Positions 31,947 to 41,113 of a stretch of DNA of 64,000 nt are shown here, one piece after another (position 1 is the first letter of the stretch; each line of letters starts with the position of its first letter). Source of the DNA: Thauera carbonicopians (GTDB lineage Bacteria > Pseudomonadota > Gammaproteobacteria > Burkholderiales > Rhodocyclaceae); assembly GCF_025699485.1 (NCBI RefSeq), contig NZ_JANUXN010000011.1:1-64000 (forward strand), given 5' to 3'. Position numbers and translations under genes: made by a program. A model generated the notes under the pieces. It was given only the letters and a program-made list of their open reading frames with translations, ran no database searches and was not told the origin of the DNA.

Positions 31947-33392
31947 ATGAGCAAGAGCCAGAACCCGCTGAAAACCGCCGACCGCTACCTGCTGTCGCCC
32001 TATGGCCTGGGCGAGGCGGAGTTGGAGAAGACCTTCCGCAAGCTGATGCGCCACGACATCGACTTCGCCGACCTGTATTTCCAGTATCAGCGCTCCGAAG
32101 CCTGGAGCCTGGAAGAAGGCATCGTCAAGTCGGGCAGCTTCGACATCGAGCAGGGCGTGGGCGTGCGTGCGATCAGCGGCGAGAAGACGGCTTTCGCCTA
32201 TTCGGACGACATCTCGCTCGACGCGCTGCTGGATGCGGCCACCGCCACCCGCGCGATCGCCGCCGCCGGCGAGCGCCGCAGCGTGAACATCGTGCCGCAC
32301 AAGCTCAAGACGCCGCTGTACCGCGGCGACGATCCGCTCGATTCGCTCGACGATACCGCCAAGGTCAGGCTGCTGGAGCGGCTCGAGGGCTTCGCCCGCG
32401 CCGAAGACCCGCGTGTCACCCAGGTCATGGCGCACATCGCCGGCAGTTGGGAAGTGGTGATGGTGGCGCGCAGCGACGGCCACCTGGCGGCCGACGTGCG
32501 GCCGCTGGTGCGGGTGTCGATCACCGTGATCATGGAGGAGGACGGCCGCCGCGAGCAGGGCAGCGGCGGTGGTGGCGGGCGCTACGACTATGCCTATTTC
32601 AGCGACGAGCGCCTGCACGAGTATGCGCACGCTGCGGTGCATCAGGCGCGCGTCAACCTCGGTGCCGATCCGGCGCCGGCCGGCAGCATGCCGGTGGTGC
32701 TGGGACCGGGCTGGCCCGGCATCCTGCTGCACGAGGCGATCGGCCACGGCCTGGAGGGCGACTTCAACCGCAAGGGCAGCTCGGCCTTTTCCGGCCGCAT
32801 CGGCCAGCAGGTCGCGGCCAAGGGCGTCACCGTGGTCGATGACGGCACGCTGCCGGACCGCCGCGGCTCGCTGTCGATCGACGACGAAGGCAATCCGACC
32901 CGGCGCACGGTGCTGATCGAGGACGGCATCCTCACCGGCTACATGCAGGACATGATGAATGCCCGCCTGATGGGCATGGCGCCGACCGGCAACGGCCGGC
33001 GCGAATCCTTCGCCCATCTGCCGTTGCCGCGCATGACCAATACCTACATGCTGAACGGCGACAAGGACCCGGAAGAGATCATCAAGTCGGTGAAGAAGGG
33101 CTTGTATGCGGTGAACTTCGGCGGCGGCCAGGTCGACATCACCTCGGGCAAGTTCGTGTTCTCGACCGCCGAGGCCTACCTGATCGAGAACGGCAAGGTC
33201 ACCCGCCCGGTCAAGGGCGCGACGCTGATCGGCAACGGCCCGGATGCGCTGACCAAGGTGAAGCTGATCGGCAACGACATGCGGCTCGACCCCGGCGTCG
33301 GCACCTGCGGCAAGGACGGCCAGAGCGTGCCGGTGGGCGTCGGCCAGCCGACGCTGCGCATCGACGGGCTGACGGTGGGCGGTACGGCCTGA
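31947..33392 (+). CDS. tldD: metalloprotease TldD
   Basis: 481 residues, ATG with AAGGA upstream. The HExxxH zinc motif HEAIGH is at 262-267, followed by [12 protein letters not shown]; the third ligand Cys lies in the C-terminal [10 protein letters not shown]. TldD works with PmbA/TldE to degrade unfolded or modified peptides (microcin B17 and CcdA in Escherichia coli). tldE is not in the window. Full length. Confidence 0.95.
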
Positions 33393-33409
33393 TTCGGATC
33401 GTCAGGCAG

Positions 33410-33438
33410 GGGGGCGCGGCGCTTGTCTCCGCGCCCCC
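33410..33438. terminator. bidirectional GC hairpin between tldD and the small exported gene
   Basis: 10-bp perfect stem GGGGGCGCGG / CCGCGCCCCC with a 9-base loop between two convergent genes. No clear T-tract on either side. Confidence 0.45.
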
Positions 33439-33476
33439 GCGGCTTGCCGTTTCCCCATGCACCCGATGAGCCTGGT

Positions 33477-33662
33477 TCAGCTCTGGACCGGCTTGCTGAT
33501 CTTGTCCTTGGTGCCGCCGGTGTCGTGCTTTTCGCCGCTGCAGTTGCTCGGCACGTCGATCTCCACGCTCGGCAGCAGGCTGGTGGCCTGGGCCGGGGTG
33601 CAGATGGCGTAGGCCAGCGCGGTGGTGGTGATGAGGGTGGCGATGGTCTGGCGCTTGATCAT
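33477..33662 (-). CDS. small exported protein, unknown function
   Basis: 61 residues. A clear signal peptide (MIKRQTIATLITTTALAYA, cut near AQA-TS) leaves a 35-residue mature peptide containing one Cys (VPSNCSGEKHDTGGTKDK). The ribosome site AAAGGAG is ideally placed. It starts 20 bases after glrR on the same strand, so it is probably the last gene of the glrK-qseG-glrR transcript. It is not recognised; the clean start and signal peptide argue that it is real. Confidence 0.7.
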   Translation of the reverse strand: MIKRQTIATLITTTALAYAICTPAQATSLLPSVEIDVPSNCSGEKHDTGGTKDKISKPVQS

Positions 33663-33682
33663 GGCATGCTCCTTTGGTCTGT

Positions 33683-35076
<1,394 letters not shown>

Positions 35077-35080
<4 letters not shown>

Positions 35081-35601
35081 TGGGAACGCGGGCGCGGCGT
35101 AGCTGGCACCGGCGGCGTCAGGCTGCGCTCGATTTCGGCCAGGGCATCGAGCTTGCGTTGCAGTGCTTCGTTGCGCTGCTCGCTGTCCTTGAGTGCTTCG
35201 GCGCTTTGTTCGAGTTGCTGGCCGAGGCGCTCGTTGAGCCCGGCGAGTCGCTGGCGCTCCTGGACCTGCTCGAGCAGTGCGCGCGCGTATGGATGCAGCG
35301 CGCGCGATTCGGCGTCTTCGGCGGCCAGCAGCCCCTGCAGCAGGCTTCGGGCGCGCGGCAGGTTGGATTGGCGCGGCCTGGCGGCGCGGATTGCCGCCTG
35401 CATGGTCTGCTCGGCGGTGGTGGCCTGCGTTTCGCCGTGATGCGAAGCGCCGCCTTCGGCCTTGTCGGGATGGGGCAGCGCTGCGCAGCTCGACAGCAGC
35501 AGTGCGCCCAGCAGCAGGAGCAGGGCGGCAGGCGAGGTGCCGGACGAAGCGGCGGGTGCGGTGGCGCGTGGCATCGGGCTCGGATGGAAGTCAGGTCGCA
35601 T
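35077..35601 (-). CDS. qseG: QseG/GlrQ-like outer-membrane lipoprotein
   Basis: 174 residues from the ATG at 35601 (overlaps the kinase stop by 11 bases; ATG 35577 is an alternative). A hydrophobic segment ends in the lipobox LLSSCAAL, so Cys is lipidated. The remainder is a long coiled coil (QVQERQRLAGLNERLGQQLE and onward, rich in Glu/Gln/Leu). QseG in enterobacteria activates the GlrK kinase from the periplasmic side. It is assigned by position between kinase and regulator plus lipobox and coiled coil; sequence identity cannot be judged here. Confidence 0.8.
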
Positions 35602-37048
35602 GGGGAAGTTCGACTCGGAAATGGGCGCCGCGTTCGACCGGAAGCGCGGAAACCTTGCCGTGATGTGCGGCAATGAATTCCCGCACGATCGCGAGGCCGA
35701 GGCCAGTGCCCTTGGACGTACGCTCGTCCGGATGGCTGCCCTGGAAGAAGGGCTCGAAGATGCGCTCGGATTCTTCCGGCCGGATGCCGGGGCCGTCGTC
35801 GATGCAGTCGATGAGCACTTTCTCGTCCTGCGCAGACAGCTCGACCCGCACCTTGCTGCCAGTCGGGCTGAAACCGACGGCGTTGGCGATCAGGTTCGAC
35901 AAGGCGATGCGCAATTTGCCGGGGTCGGCGCGCACGAGCGGGGCGTCGCCGACGATGTCGATCGCCACGCCGCGCGCCTGCGCCTGCAACTGCAGCTCGC
36001 TGGCGACTTCGCGCATCATCGGCAGCAAGGCGCTCGGCTGCAGGTCGAGGCGGCGGGAGTCGAACTGGATGGCGTTGTAGTGCAGCAGTTGTTCGATGCG
36101 TTCCTGCAGGGCGCGCGTATTGTGCTCGAGGATGGCCGTGACTTCCTGCTGCTCGGGCGTGAGCCGGCCGAGTACGCCGTCCGCGAGCAGGGAGACGCCC
36201 TCGCGCAGCGAGGCGAGCGGCGTCTTGAGCTCATGGGAGACATGGCGCAGCACGCGATTCCGGTTCGCTTCCAGTTCGCTCAGGCGCACGCGCAGCCAGT
36301 CGAGCTGCTTGCCGACCCGGCGCAGATCCGCCGGGCCGTCGATGCGGATGGCCTGGTTGAGGCGATTCTCGCCGAGGTCCGAGATGCTCCGCTCGATGTG
36401 GCGCAGCGGGCGCAGCAGCCACCAGCCGGTCAGTGCGGCAAGGACGACGGACAGTGCCAGTGCGCCGAGAATCTGCCGGGTCAGCTGTTCGCGGCGCTGG
36501 TCGAGGGTGTCGAGCAACTTGCCGTTGCTATCGATGATGTGCGTGCGAACGGCCTGGGCCAGGTCGTCGTTGAGCCGAGCCAGCTCCGCGAGGGCGGTGG
36601 CTGCAGCCTGGCTGCGCAGCTCGAGGGGGATGGCGGTGGTGTCACCCGCCACCGCAGCCTCGGCTGCTGCGGCCTGTTCGCGCCATTGGGAGGCGAGTGG
36701 GGCGGCATCGGCCAACTGAGCCTCGATACGGGCCAGAGCGGCGAGGGCTTCGGCGCGAGCGCCGTTGAAGCGTTCGAGGAAGGAGATTTCCTCATGCACC
36801 AGATACTGGCGGGCGCCGCGCTCGAAATCGACGGTCCGTTCGGCGAGCTGCTGCATGTCGCTGTTGAGCTCGAGCAAGGCGGCTGCGCTGCGACGGCTGT
36901 CGCGGGCGAAGCTTTCGAGGTCGAGCCAGCCGCTGATGGCTGCGGCGCTGAGGATGGCGACGATCGACAGGAAGCTCGCGAGCAGAGTCGAACTGAATGA
37001 CGGACGCAGCATTTTTCTTGGCGCTCTGCGGAAAAGTACGGACTTCAT
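35591..37048 (-). CDS. glrK: sensor histidine kinase, GlrK-like
   Basis: 485 residues from the ATG at 37048 (ATG 37012 also plausible; it has AAGAAA upstream). Helix one is at about 20-42, then a roughly 150-residue helical periplasmic domain, helix two at about 193-213, HAMP, phospho-acceptor His272 (LRHVSHELKTPLA), then ATP-binding motifs ANAVGFSPTGS, DDGPGIRPEES and GTGLGLAIV. It is the first gene of the operon and is divergent from the bactofilin gene; the shared 312-bp region carries the GlrR sites. Confidence 0.88.
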   Translation of the reverse strand: MKSVLFRRAPRKMLRPSFSSTLLASFLSIVAILSAAAISGWLDLESFARDSRRSAAALLELNSDMQQLAERTVDFERGARQYLVHEEISFLERFNGARAEALAALARIEAQLADAAPLASQWREQAAAAEAAVAGDTTAIPLELRSQAAATALAELARLNDDLAQAVRTHIIDSNGKLLDTLDQRREQLTRQILGALALSVVLAALTGWWLLRPLRHIERSISDLGENRLNQAIRIDGPADLRRVGKQLDWLRVRLSELEANRNRVLRHVSHELKTPLASLREGVSLLADGVLGRLTPEQQEVTAILEHNTRALQERIEQLLHYNAIQFDSRRLDLQPSALLPMMREVASELQLQAQARGVAIDIVGDAPLVRADPGKLRIALSNLIANAVGFSPTGSKVRVELSAQDEKVLIDCIDDGPGIRPEESERIFEPFFQGSHPDERTSKGTGLGLAIVREFIAAHHGKVSALPVERGAHFRVELPHAT

Positions 37049-37113
37049 GATTCTAGCGAGCCATGAGAGCGCTGGTGCAGGCAAATCGGCCGGGTACGGC
37101 CAATTTCCGGAGC

Positions 37114-37131
37114 TTGTCGCTCCAGTGTGAC
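37114..37131. promoter_or_regulatory. GlrR-type binding site 1
   Basis: TGTC-GCTCCAGTGT-GACA is an exact match to TGTC-N10-GACA, the activator site known from GlrR control of glmY in Escherichia coli. It lies between glrK and the bactofilin gene, about 160 bases upstream of the sigma-54 promoter, a usual enhancer distance. Confidence 0.7.
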
Positions 37132-37181
37132 ACTAAAAAATTTTTTGATAACAGCCATTTGCGACGATTGAATTGAATCAA

Positions 37182-37199
37182 TGTCGGGCTGAGGCGACA
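37182..37199. promoter_or_regulatory. GlrR-type binding site 2
   Basis: TGTC-GGGCTGAGGC-GACA is a second exact TGTC-N10-GACA site, centred 68 bases from the first and about 95 bases upstream of the promoter. Two exact copies in a 70-base stretch next to the regulator gene are unlikely by chance. Confidence 0.72.
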
Positions 37200-37286
37200 A
37201 GATCGGTGCCGCGATGGTGGCACGAAGACGGCATGTTGCCGTGCACCGGGTTTCAAGCGTTTGAAATTACTTGGGAAAGAAACCGG

Positions 37287-37301
37287 TGGCATGAGGCTTG
37301 C
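37287..37301 (+). promoter_or_regulatory. sigma-54 promoter of the bactofilin gene
   Basis: TGGCATGAGGCTTGC fits TGGCAY-R-N4-TTGC with correct -24/-12 spacing. The start would fall near 37313, giving a leader of about 48 bases before the AAGGAG ribosome site and the ATG at 37361. Confidence 0.75.
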
Positions 37302-37360
37302 GAATGGGCTGGAGGTTCAGCAACCGTGTCGGACGGTTGAAGCCAGTCCAAGGAGATGCC

Positions 37361-37948
37361 ATGTTCAACAAGCCGAATCTTTTTCCGAAGCAGACCGAAT
37401 CCGTTGGCCAGCGCTCCACGCCGACGCGACCCGCAACGATGGGAAGCAGCGTTTCCCCGTCCAGCGTGGCTTCGTCTTCCGACTCGGCGCAGGAGGTGAC
37501 CAAGGTGGATTCGGCGAAATCCGAGTCCGCTGCGCCCGTGGAGACTGCAACGGGCGGCAGCCGCCTGATCGTCGGCCCCGACGTCAAGCTGAAGGGCGCC
37601 GAGATCCTGGATTGCGATACCCTGGTCGTCGAGGGCCGGGTCGAGGCGACGATGGACAGCCGCGTCATCCGGATTGCCGAGAATGGTTCCTACGAAGGCA
37701 CGGTCGGCATCGATGTCGCCGAGATCCACGGCCGTTTCGAAGGCGAGCTGACGGCCCGCCAGCAATTGATCATCCATGCCACCGGCCGGGTCAGCGGCAA
37801 GATTCGCTACGGCAAGATCCTGATCGAGGAAGGCGGCGAAGTGTCCGGCGATGTGCAGTCGCTCACCAGGGCGGGAGCCAAGGAAGGATTGCGCGCGGTC
37901 GAGAGCCGCGGCAACGACAGCAAGCCGATTGCGGCAGTGGCCGGTTGA
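37361..37948 (+). CDS. bactofilin
   Basis: 195 residues, ATG with AAGGAG. A disordered Ser/Thr/Pro-rich N-terminus (about 1-65) is followed by the bactofilin beta-helix (about 68-165) with repeating strands such as LKGAEILDCDTLVVEGRVEA and GRFEGELTARQQLIIHATG. The C-terminal tail (about 170-195) is charged. Bactofilins polymerise on the membrane without nucleotide and guide cell shape, stalks, or local peptidoglycan enzymes. The next gene, convergent, encodes a lytic transglycosylase. The promoter is sigma-54 type with GlrR-like sites, which is unusual for this family. Confidence 0.92.
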   Translation: MFNKPNLFPKQTESVGQRSTPTRPATMGSSVSPSSVASSSDSAQEVTKVDSAKSESAAPVETATGGSRLIVGPDVKLKGAEILDCDTLVVEGRVEATMDSRVIRIAENGSYEGTVGIDVAEIHGRFEGELTARQQLIIHATGRVSGKIRYGKILIEEGGEVSGDVQSLTRAGAKEGLRAVESRGNDSKPIAAVAG

Positions 37949-37951
37949 TGT

Positions 37952-37979
37952 CGCAGCGGGGGTGCGTGCCACCCCTGCG
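37952..37979. terminator. hairpin between convergent bactofilin and transglycosylase genes
   Basis: CGCA and GGGGTG arms pair with CACCCC and TGCG across a short loop, with a 3-base bulge. No T-run. It probably serves both genes. Confidence 0.35.
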
Positions 37980-37986
37980 GATTCAT

Positions 37987-38634
37987 TCACTCCGTGGGAG
38001 TGAGCGTGGTGGAGCTGGCAGCGAGCCGTTGGGCCTGCCAGCTCCATTGCTTTTCCCACGCCGTGCGCACCAGGTTCGGGTAGCCCGGCTTGCCCAGGCT
38101 GCCGTTGTAGCGGCCGAGTGCGCGGAAGAGATCGCCTTTCTCGATGTCGAGATAGTGGCGCAGGATCGTGCAGCCGTAGCGCAGGTTGGTGCGCAGGTGG
38201 AACAGGTTGTCGTCCGGCCGCTCCATGACCTTGAGCCAGAACGGCATCACCTGCATGTAGCCGCGTGCGCCGGCCGACGAGATCGCGTATTTTCGGAAGT
38301 TGCTTTCGACCTGGATCAGGGCGAGCACCAGTTGTGGGTCGAGGCCGGCACGAGTGGCTTCGTAGTGGATGCTGGTCAGCAGTTCGTTGCGGTAGTTGAG
38401 GTCCGGAATCCGCTTCTGCAGCCGGCGTGACATTTCCGCCAGCCACTGCGCGCGCTCGCCGGCGTCGGGAATCGGCAACATCGGTGCCACTGCGTCGCTG
38501 ACCGCTTCGTGCAGTGCCGCGCGCACGCTGGCGGCCAGCGGTTCGTACTGTTGCGCGCCGGCCTGTACCGCATTGGCTGCCAGCGCGAACAGCAGCGCGG
38601 CGACGGTGCGGAGCAGGGCCGACGGGTGGTGCAT
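37987..38634 (-). CDS. lytic transglycosylase (SLT domain), exported
   Basis: 215 residues. A signal peptide ends NAVQA-GA. The SLT fold (about 90-200) has catalytic Glu in ALIQVESNFRKYAISSAGARG, then GYMQVMPFW and the AL-RYNGSLG block. It cleaves peptidoglycan to 1,6-anhydro-muropeptides. It follows proS by two bases on the same strand, so the two are cotranscribed. Confidence 0.9.
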   Translation of the reverse strand: MHHPSALLRTVAALLFALAANAVQAGAQQYEPLAASVRAALHEAVSDAVAPMLPIPDAGERAQWLAEMSRRLQKRIPDLNYRNELLTSIHYEATRAGLDPQLVLALIQVESNFRKYAISSAGARGYMQVMPFWLKVMERPDDNLFHLRTNLRYGCTILRHYLDIEKGDLFRALGRYNGSLGKPGYPNLVRTAWEKQWSWQAQRLAASSTTLTPTE

Positions 38635-38636
38635 GC

Positions 38637-40385
38637 TCAGGCCTTGCCGAGCAGGCTCAGGATGTGGGCTGCGATGTCGGCGGCGGCAAGCTTGCTGGCC
38701 TCGGCATCACGCCGGCCCTGGTATTCCACCAGGCCTTCCTTCAGCCCGCGGTCGCCGATGGTGACGCGGTGCGGTACGCCGATCAGCTCCCAGTCGGCGA
38801 ACATCACGCCGGGGCGTTCGTCGCGGTCGTCGAGAATGACATCCACGCCCTGTGCCAGCAGGGTGTCGTAGAGCTTCTGTGCTTCGTCGCGCACGGCTTC
38901 GGACTTGCCCCAGCCGACCGGGCAGATCACGACTTCGAAAGGTGCGATCGCCAGCGGCCAGATGATGCCGCGGGCGTCGTGGTTCTGCTCGATCGCGGCA
39001 CCCAGGATGCGGGTCACGCCGATGCCGTAGCAGCCCATCTCGAAATGCTTGGGTTTGCCGTCCTCGTCGAGGAAGGTGGCGTTCATCGCCTTGGAGTACT
39101 TGGTGCCCAGGTAGAAGACGTGGCCGACTTCGATGCCGCGCTGGATTGCGAGCATGCCCTTGCCGTCGGGCGAGGGGTCGCCTTCGACGACGTTGCGGAT
39201 GTCGGCGACGAGGTCCGGTTCGGGCAGGTCGCGGCCCCAGTTGACACCGGTGAAGTGGTAGTCGGCGTCGTTGGCGCCGCAGATGAAGTCGGCCATGTCG
39301 GCGACCGTGCGGTCGGCGACGATCCTGACCGGCTTCTTCAGCCCGATTGGGCCGAGGTAGCCCGGCTTGCAACCGAAGTGCGCGAGGATTTCCGCCTCGG
39401 TGGCGAAGCGGAAGCCGGCCTTGAGCCCTTCCAGCTTGCCGGTCTTGACTTCGTTCAGGACGTGGTCGCCGCGTACCAGCAGCAGCCAGACGGTGACGCC
39501 GGCCGGCTCGCCCTTGTCGTCGACGTCGTCGGTGGCCAGCACCAGCGACTTGACCGTGGTGGCGAGCGGCACGCCGAGCAGTTCGGCGACGTCCTCGCAG
39601 GTGGCCTTGCCGGGGGTCGGGGTCTTCTCCAGCGCCTGCTTGGCTTCGCCGCGGCCCGGCAGCAGCGACACGGCTTCGGCCAGCTCGATGTTGGCGGCGT
39701 AGCTGGAGTCCGGGCAGTAGACGATGGCGTCTTCGCCGGTGTCGGCGATGACCTGGAATTCGTGCGAGCGGTCGCCGCCGATGGCGCCGGTGTCGGCGGC
39801 GACGGCGCGGTACTGGAGGCCGAGGCGGTCGAAGATGCGCGTGTAGGCGGCGAACATGCTGTCGTAGCTGCGGCCGGCGGCTTCTTCGCTGCGGTCGAAG
39901 GAGTAGGCGTCCTTCATCGTGAACTCACGGCCGCGCATGATGCCGAAGCGCGGCCGGCGCTCGTCGCGGAACTTGGTCTGGATCTGGTAGAAGTTGCGCG
40001 GCAGCTGGCGGTAGCTCTTCAGTTCCTGGCGGGCGATGTCGGTGACGACTTCCTCGGAGGTCGGCTGCATCGCGAAGTCGCGCTCGTGGCGGTCCTTCAG
40101 GCGCAGCAGTTCCGGGCCCATCTTGTCCCAGCGGCCTGTTTCCTGCCACAGCTCGGCGGGCTGCACCAGCGGCATGGTCAGTTCCATCGCGCCGGCGCGG
40201 TTCATTTCCTCGCGGATGATCGTCTCGACCTTGCGGATCGAGCGCAAGGCCATCGGCATGTAGCTGTAGATGCCGGCCGCGGCCTTGCGGATCATGCCGG
40301 CGCGCAGCATCAGCTTCTGGCTGACGACTTCGGCGTCGGAGGGGGCTTCCTTGAGGGTGAACAGATGGAACTGGCTGGCGCGCAT
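38637..40385 (-). CDS. proS: prolyl-tRNA synthetase
   Basis: 582 residues from the [14 protein letters not shown] (upstream residues are unrelated to the family). It is a class II synthetase of bacterial type with the inserted editing domain (about 225-380). Motif 2 is [25 protein letters not shown], seen in part at about 138-160; motif 3 is [14 protein letters not shown]; the anticodon-binding domain is C-terminal. Length is typical. Confidence 0.96.
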
Positions 40386-40487
40386 GAGAGTCTTCAGTCT
40401 GGAAAGGCTTTGTCGAACGCGCGATTCTAGCGCAAGGCACCGCCTGTAAAGGCTTGTATCGGGTATGGTGGATCGATGCACGCCGAT

Positions 40488-40508
40488 GGTGCGCTTTCAA
40501 AGCGCACC
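40488..40508. other. hairpin in the proS-rppH divergent region
   Basis: 9-bp stem GGTGCGCTT / AAGCGCACC with loop TCA, about 50 bases upstream of rppH. It could be an operator or a leader hairpin; nothing else supports either reading. Confidence 0.35.
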
Positions 40509-40555
40509 CAAGTGTGAAAAAATCGACGTCAATCAACCGAATTTGAAGGTTAGTC

Positions 40556-41113
40556 ATGCTTGATCGTGAAGGCTTTCGCCCGAACGTCGGCATCATTCTG
40601 GTAAATGCGCGCAACGAGGTTTTCTGGGGCAAGCGCATCCGCGAACATTCCTGGCAGTTTCCGCAAGGTGGCATCAAGCACGGCGAATCGCCGGAGCAGG
40701 CGATGTACCGGGAACTGTTCGAGGAAGTCGGATTGCGTCCGGAGCACGTCAAGATCCTCGGCCGCACGCGGGGCTGGCTGCGCTATGAAGTGCCGCGGCA
40801 CTGGATACGGCGCGAATGGCGCAACACCTATCGTGGACAGAAGCAGATCTGGTTTCTGTTGCGCTTGGTGGGGCGCGATTCCGATGTCTGCCTGCGTGCG
40901 AGCTCGCACCCGGAATTCGATGCCTGGCGATGGAGCAATTACTGGGTGCCGCTGGAGGCGGTGATCGAGTTCAAGCGGCAGGTGTATCAGATGGCACTCG
41001 TCGAACTGGCGCGCGTGCTGTTCCGGTCGCGCAACTTCGATCTGCCGGAAAGCTACCGCCTGCCCGAACCCGAGCGGCCGGTGCCGGTGGTCCTCGGTGC
41101 GTCGCAGCGCTGA
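40556..41113 (+). CDS. rppH: RNA pyrophosphohydrolase
   Basis: 185 residues. It begins [15 protein letters not shown], typical of RppH, followed by [13 protein letters not shown] and RELFEEVGL, which make up the complete NUDIX box. RppH removes the 5' pyrophosphate of mRNA and triggers RNase E decay. It is divergent from proS, a common betaproteobacterial arrangement. Confidence 0.94.

Follow-up and report, generated by a model that had tools for sequence, protein, structure and literature searches.

Divergently arranged sensor kinase and bactofilin genes in Thauera carbonicopians (GCF_025699485.1, contig NZ_JANUXN010000011.1, positions 1-64,000; these 64,000 nt are hereafter the window, and the genome is G000) raise the question of what the DNA between them controls. 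A sequence-only reading had placed two exact TGTC-N10-GACA sites and a sigma-54 promoter between glrK and the bactofilin gene, and both the pair of sites and the promoter were confirmed there (Table 1). They occupy the 312-bp gap between the two start codons (glrK ATG at 37048 on the minus strand, bactofilin ATG at 37361). On the comparisons presented below, bactofilin is very probably a direct target of GlrR and sigma-54, under the command of an envelope three-component system formed by GlrK, GlrG and GlrR.

Table 1. Features of the glr-bactofilin region, numbered from the first letter of the window.
Feature	Position	Strand	Basis
61-aa ORF directly behind glrR	33477..33662	-	Signal-peptide-like start resembling BON proteins behind glrR in relatives
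glrR, sigma-54 activator	33683..35080	-	57% to E. coli GlrR over 427 aa; recognition helix NRTEFYRLL
glrG, QseG-like lipoprotein	35077..35601	-	33% over 58 aa to E. coli QseG, E 0.002
glrK, sensor kinase	35591..37048	-	Pfam HATPase_c, HisKA, HAMP; 41% to E. coli GlrK over 328 aa
UAS1, upstream GlrR-type enhancer site TGTC-N10-GACA	37115..37132		Exact match; aligned with ten relatives
IHF-like site TAACAGCCATTTG	37149..37161	+	1 mismatch to WATCARNNNNTTR
UAS2, downstream GlrR-type enhancer site TGTC-N10-GACA	37182..37199		Exact match; 67 bp from UAS1, start to start
Sigma-54 -24/-12 promoter TGGCATGAGGCTTGC	37287..37301	+	Exact TGGCA-N6-TTGC; 87 bp after UAS2
Ribosome-binding site AAGGAG	37350..37355	+	Sequence; GGAGA invariant among aligned relatives
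Bactofilin, 195 aa	37361..37948	+	Pfam PF04519, 65 bits vs cut-off 27.9; only match in genome

When 11 upstream regions were aligned, the GG and TGC of the promoter were invariant, and almost every invariant column fell in an enhancer core, in the promoter, in the GGAGA or in the start codon. The distance from the promoter to the bactofilin codon, counted from the inferred start, is about 48 nt. The IHF-like site differs by a single letter from WATCARNNNNTTR, which we take to be the IHF consensus, and it is one of four such one-mismatch sequences in 37100-37320. Other candidate elements were discarded: a second -24/-12-like motif at 37218-37234 and an inverted repeat seen by eye in the 5' leader near 37326-37344 lacked counterparts among the aligned relatives, and a glmY-like RNA was rejected after Rfam gave no match at E<=1 in 33000-41000. 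A search for plasmid relatives was likewise unproductive, with no place covering 80% of the query and with fragments of sigma-54 activator genes making up most of the matches listed.

The names given to the neighbouring genes by the sequence-only reading (a GlrR-type regulator, a bactofilin and a lytic transglycosylase) proved correct. NCBIfam GlrR is the best family for the regulator, with 606 bits against 401 for the next one, a score below the curated cut-off of 763. Between glrK and glrR lies glrG, without match in Pfam or NCBIfam, whose product carries a LLSSC lipobox recognised by eye. Beyond bactofilin, and convergent with it, are the SLT transglycosylase gene and then proS. In other loci (L115, 3831-4436, by Pfam; L117, 3805-4443, and L188, both by similarity to L115), bactofilin is followed by a gene for a FeeM-like N-acyl amino acid synthase.

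The likeness to the Glr system of Enterobacteriaceae is close. Control of glmY by GlrR/QseF has been reported in that family, with the participation of IHF in E. coli (PMC6075780 and PMC8745638). Both E. coli and the window have orthologous GlrR proteins, the same kinase-lipoprotein-regulator gene order and the same enhancer sequence, and their recognition helices, NRTEFYKLL and NRTEFYRLL, respectively, share an identical NRTEFY core. Among 88 distinct alignments of GlrR orthologues, with identities from 53% upwards, 78 had this core and 10 departed from it at 1-2 residues; all of the 11 paralogue alignments lacked it. The glmY region of E. coli K-12 contains three exact TGTC-N10-GACA sites, in contrast to the two of the window, and the last two are separated by 63 bp, a spacing similar to the 67 bp found here; its -24/-12 promoter is located 27 bp before the RNA start, and also in this case the sigma-54 promoter is beside glrK. 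For the IHF reported in E. coli, the window offers a candidate IHF-like sequence. The targets differ, however: in E. coli it is the GlmY RNA, whereas in the window it would be a cytoskeletal gene that codes for a protein and is read from the other strand than glrK. A further E. coli target, rpoE, has been described as controlled by GlrR/QseF and dependent on sigma-54 (PMC6075780); it is also an envelope-related gene, although it encodes a sigma factor and not a structural protein. Seven genomes (G092, G030, G083, G118, G097, G366 and G328) contain two GlrR orthologues each.

A scan of GTDB species genomes for the pair and the promoter, blind to genes, gave at least 120 stretches, and a GlrR orthologue at 55% or more was found for 39 of 80 among the matches listed. 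Among them were Salmonella, Pantoea, Tatumella and Pluralibacter, where the promoter is located upstream of glrK. Rfam was applied to two enterobacterial loci (Salmonella, L195; Pantoea, L187) and placed GlmY behind the promoter in both, which served as a positive control. In the literature searched, which includes few subscription journals and in part was accessible only as excerpts, control of a bactofilin gene by GlrR is unreported, as is its dependence on sigma-54, and no paper joins bactofilin with QseF or GlrR with Betaproteobacteria. A bactofilin gene appears in a table of NtrX targets, with a change of 0.06 and p 0.99 (PMC7240162).

It could be argued that these motifs are chance matches or non-functional remnants. 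The window contains three exact TGTC-N10-GACA sites, with a mean of 0.68 in shuffled sequences and three or more reached in 5 of 100 shuffles, together with three exact TGGCA-N6-TTGC sequences, TGGCATGAGGCTTGC among them; when one mismatch is allowed, the latter pattern shows no enrichment in the window (15 found, 20.7 expected). G000 contains many single sites and many single -24/-12 matches, and the former are weak evidence, since 70 were found in the genome and 50 with a reversed control pattern. Likewise, there are two examples of a site with TGGC-N8-TGC 50-111 bp downstream (at the bactofilin locus and on contig 13), and its reversed control also gave two; therefore the pairing of the sites is the informative feature. 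The probability of two sites within one 312-bp gap is about 1e-5, and about 0.009 pairs with this type of spacing are expected per genome. The genome-wide search for TGTC-N10-GACA, proposed beforehand as a check, was run on G000 and found a single pair, that of bactofilin, either with exact sites (gap 38-68) or with the relaxed pattern (gap 44-51). At a larger scale, the paired pattern was present in 62 of 300 genomes of the order, against 3 for the reversed control. Taking these numbers with the conservation described next, an accidental or vestigial origin is extremely unlikely for the window, and across the family chance can already be taken as refuted.

The maintenance of the sites among relatives, a check also named beforehand, was studied across the family of the window, in a set of 121 genomes. 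Of these, 57 had bactofilin at E 1e-20 or better and 57 had GlrR at E 1e-120 or better, with both present in 45. The pair was defined as two YGTC-N10-GACR sites, 62-69 bp apart, with at most one mismatch in total and within 600 bp upstream of bactofilin. This relaxed motif was chosen after degenerate sites had appeared in the scoring of the wider order, and it was combined with shuffles in the family because the wider-order model, trained with exact TGTC sites only, under-scores CGTC/GACG variants. A pair preceded bactofilin in 39 of the 45 genomes having GlrR, against one of the 12 lacking it and 4 of 1140 shuffled upstream regions (Fisher, 7e-7 for the association with GlrR, uncorrected for relatedness). 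The only GlrR-negative genome with a pair, G382, is rated 86% complete. The -24/-12 motif lay downstream of 37 of the 40 pairs, and was present in 4 of the 17 loci without them. Six GlrR-positive genomes lack the pair (G304, G308, G321, G357, G365 and G404), one of which, G304, has the -24/-12 motif and a divergent glrK.

In the wider-order sample, 28 of 150 genomes had a good bactofilin match (E under 1e-28), and 24 of these also had GlrR. Pairs were scored at 28 of 30 bactofilin loci, after excluding two distant bactofilins (L045 and L046). Here and in the family, GlrR was called by its score, in the wider order with a gap between 427 and 343 bits apart from a contig-end fragment in G084; some GlrR may have been missed, because presence was judged by score among 11-13 candidates per genome. 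The best pair lay at least 3 s.d. above shuffles in 17 of the 24 GlrR-positive genomes, against none of the four GlrR-negative ones, the other seven GlrR-positive genomes falling under Z=3; four of the 17 had a spacing outside 62-69 bp (L021, L040, L042 and L044). When 28 genomes were scanned with the relaxed pattern, pairs appeared in 20, always including one at bactofilin, and 11 of these, G000 among them, had no other; none of six GlrR-negative genomes contained a pair, and the reversed control scored in 6 of 28. On a bactofilin tree built with 56 of the 57 rows (L344 was too short), the minimum number of changes was six for GlrR presence and eight for the pair, with low support. A test of independent pairs on this tree had one supported pair, too few to reach significance. 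All these counts, as well as the phasing test below, are inflated by relatedness.

A different possibility is that the sites autoregulate the divergent glrK operon, bactofilin being a bystander. The pair does lie between glrK and bactofilin in the window and in 17 other pair loci of the family. In the whole set of 39 GlrR-positive pair loci, glrK is divergent next door in 18, glrR alone is divergent in four and in tandem in one, and the remaining 16 retain the pair at bactofilin without any glr gene in the fetched flank (1.5-2.5 kb), which speaks against this view. Moreover, the -24/-12 motif faces bactofilin, and the scan gave none directed at glrK up to 320 bp from UAS1; a search of both strands over 36950-38050 yielded no sigma-70-like promoter. 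Autoregulation alone is thus quite unlikely, and bactofilin remains the preferred target. The divergent arrangement of the window was also observed in Aromatoleum evansii (L193), in Rhodocyclaceae MAGs (L172, L188 and L220) and in a proteobacterial MAG (L213).

The architecture of these promoters is also regular. From the scan of 300 genomes of the order, 71 pair loci were retrieved, a GlrR orthologue being found for 32; 19 of the 71 had no -24/-12 motif at 30-130 bp, and part of them fall in coding sequence and are probably chance occurrences. With 56-86 bp allowed, the enhancers were 63-68 bp apart in 31 of the 32 GlrR-linked loci (75 bp in the remaining one) and spread over 57-81 bp, with a core at 65-68, in the 39 others. 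The helical phasing and the IHF-like sites were analysed in hand-picked sets of 52, 5 and 35 named loci, with pair and promoter in 52, 5 and 34, respectively; here, as in the family test, the 62-69 bp range was imposed by the search patterns, and the loci used for phasing were not chosen by their enhancer-promoter distance. The distances between UAS2 and the promoter fall into groups near 52, 64, 75, 85 and 94 bp, in steps of about a helical turn. With a period of 10.5 bp, R was 0.68 in the 29 bactofilin promoters and 0.73 in the 28 promoters behind glrR, values attained in none of 20000 uniform draws, uncorrected for relatedness. An IHF-like site occupied mostly fixed offsets of the spacer in 42 of 52 promoters behind glrR (4.7 expected), and was rarer in those of bactofilin (13 of 34, 1.7 expected), at an offset of 18-20, which matches the location of the IHF-like sequence in the window.

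Pairs of this kind are not exclusive to GlrR, and another NtrC-family regulator recognising a similar site might act on bactofilin instead. TGTC-N10-GACA pairs exist beside NtrC-type regulators 34-49% identical to GlrR (Marinobacter, Billgrantia, L203 and L205), and G000 encodes five matches at E 1e-80 or better, GlrR included. Nevertheless, the pairs of the other regulators read TGTCCTG, TGTCTGA or TGTCCGA, whereas GlrR-linked pairs favour TGTCGCC-N4-GGCGACA; the presence of the pair follows that of GlrR; the next best G000 match listed aligns to GlrR residue 382 at most, short of the recognition helix at 438; and the gene kept beside bactofilin in four relatives is that of GlrR. A substitute regulator is accordingly very unlikely, and GlrR stands as the preferred activator. 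As a separate observation, TGTCCTG- or TGTCTGA-type pairs with -24/-12-like motifs are found right behind an NtrC-type regulator 40-49% identical to GlrR in five loci of Marinobacter and Rhodocyclales (L171, L180, L183, L203 and L205).

The four relatives just mentioned are G343, of the same genus as the window, G360, G406 and G400 (L356, L358, L359 and L357, respectively). Their GlrR gene directly adjoins bactofilin, with the pair between the two, and a search at E 1e-40 yielded no GlrK in any of these genomes, all rated 99-100% complete; the same search was positive in G000, G395, G310, G363, G304 and G378. The regulators differ in their receiver: that of G343 keeps the receiver domain and its phospho-aspartate, that of G400 has a sub-threshold receiver match (25.5 against 30.2 bits) and an alanine at the phospho-aspartate position, and for G360 and G406 a receiver match is missing. 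All four retain the sigma-54 interaction domain and the recognition helix. In each genome, the bactofilin pair is the only one found with the relaxed pattern, although the reversed control also gave one match in G360. The kinase-less state has three origins on the bactofilin tree. As GlrR stays there and the kinase was not found, the data are most simply read with bactofilin as the output worth keeping in these relatives, probably retained by selection and switched on without GlrK.

The sole rpoN match of G000 (contig 33, 463603-464064; L393) has an in-frame TAA in the DNA-binding domain, with the frame otherwise open in the stretch read, and this stop codon would favour the view of the motifs as remnants. 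The assembly consists of 48 contigs and is rated 100% complete; the stop may be a sequencing error or a real loss, which would make this isolate a natural sigma-54 mutant. If it is real, the bactofilin promoter would be dead in the G000 isolate. This point bears on that assembly and not on control across the family, and the DNA-binding domain of rpoN has no stop in the four kinase-less relatives.

Bactofilin would be one of several envelope targets of GlrR in betaproteobacteria, as judged from the genes behind equivalent control regions, which were classified by Pfam for 40 proteins and by tblastn to some of these. Behind glrR, in many loci, the same pair and promoter precede OpgG/OpgH genes (e.g., in Rubrivivax albus; OpgH alone in a Saezia locus) and genes whose products are of the BON, BON-EF-hand or glycine-zipper type (e.g., Massilia, L227; Janthinobacterium, L189; Chromobacterium, L167 and L197). 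An unclassified gene pair of 113 and 226 aa and, in Noviherbaspirillum, a cyanophycin-synthetase-like gene were also found behind glrR. Within the family of the window, both outputs coexist in G340, G363, G396 and G409, with bactofilin before glrK and a secreted protein behind glrR, the latter being a BON protein by Pfam in the two tested (G363 and G396) and similar by eye in G340 and G409. Throughout the genus of the window, by contrast, this position behind glrR is taken by an ORF of only 61-70 aa with a similar signal-peptide-like start; no enhancer pair was found at this ORF in the window, G343 or G395, and the window copy has no BON domain or Pfam match. We infer that the second output disappeared in the genus, leaving bactofilin alone; the 61-aa ORF is perhaps a reduced BON-domain protein whose GlrR enhancer pair is gone as well. 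Pairs with promoters were also seen before or near exopolysaccharide/PEP-CTERM-type genes (L107, EpsA regulator by NCBIfam; L106, WecG-type glycosyltransferase by Pfam; L387, LuxR-like ORF by eye), which may be served by GlrR or by another NtrC-type regulator.

These results support the suggestion that Glr has a role other than glmY in betaproteobacteria and uphold GlrR-type enhancers before bactofilin, with targets beyond that RNA. The two further parts of the suggestion call for more caution. An ancestral role would be no more than a possibility, the gene neighbouring glrKGR changing from clade to clade. A function in cell-wall architecture would follow from the roles of bactofilins and from the neighbouring transglycosylase, which is convergent, lies outside the promoter and is near bactofilin in 11 of 57 family loci (1.5-2.5 kb flanks).

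Bactofilins are known for their roles in cell-wall architecture, and any effect of this control on the wall would follow from that general background. In the mechanism proposed, the lipoprotein GlrG would trigger the kinase GlrK upon some envelope condition, phosphorylated GlrR would assemble at the two enhancer sites, IHF would bend the DNA, and the AAA+ domain of GlrR would remodel the sigma-54 polymerase at the bactofilin promoter, bactofilin then being made. The signal, GlrR binding and expression are modelled here on work carried out in E. coli and Proteus (PMC6075780, PMC8745638).

An envelope-sensing system would in this way be tied directly to the gene of a cytoskeletal scaffold, a link not found in the literature searched, and by this comparison GlmY may be counted among several GlrR outputs that vary with the clade and are mostly related to the envelope. 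More tentatively, and with somewhat more doubt than belief, Glr may be seen as an envelope-architecture system with an exchangeable neighbouring target (bactofilin, BON/EF-hand/glycine-zipper proteins, OpgG/OpgH or the enterobacterial GlmY), which in this family may have been stripped of its kinase in three lineages, two of which would further lack a working receiver (deleted or deprived of its phospho-aspartate), leaving a one-gene activator hard-wired to bactofilin; a stress-inducible cytoskeleton could thus have passed to constitutive or metabolic control. Bactofilin would be a main output, as indicated by relatives that keep GlrR beside it without the kinase and, in some cases, without the receiver, and these bacteria may be regarded as natural experiments on the control of bactofilin levels.
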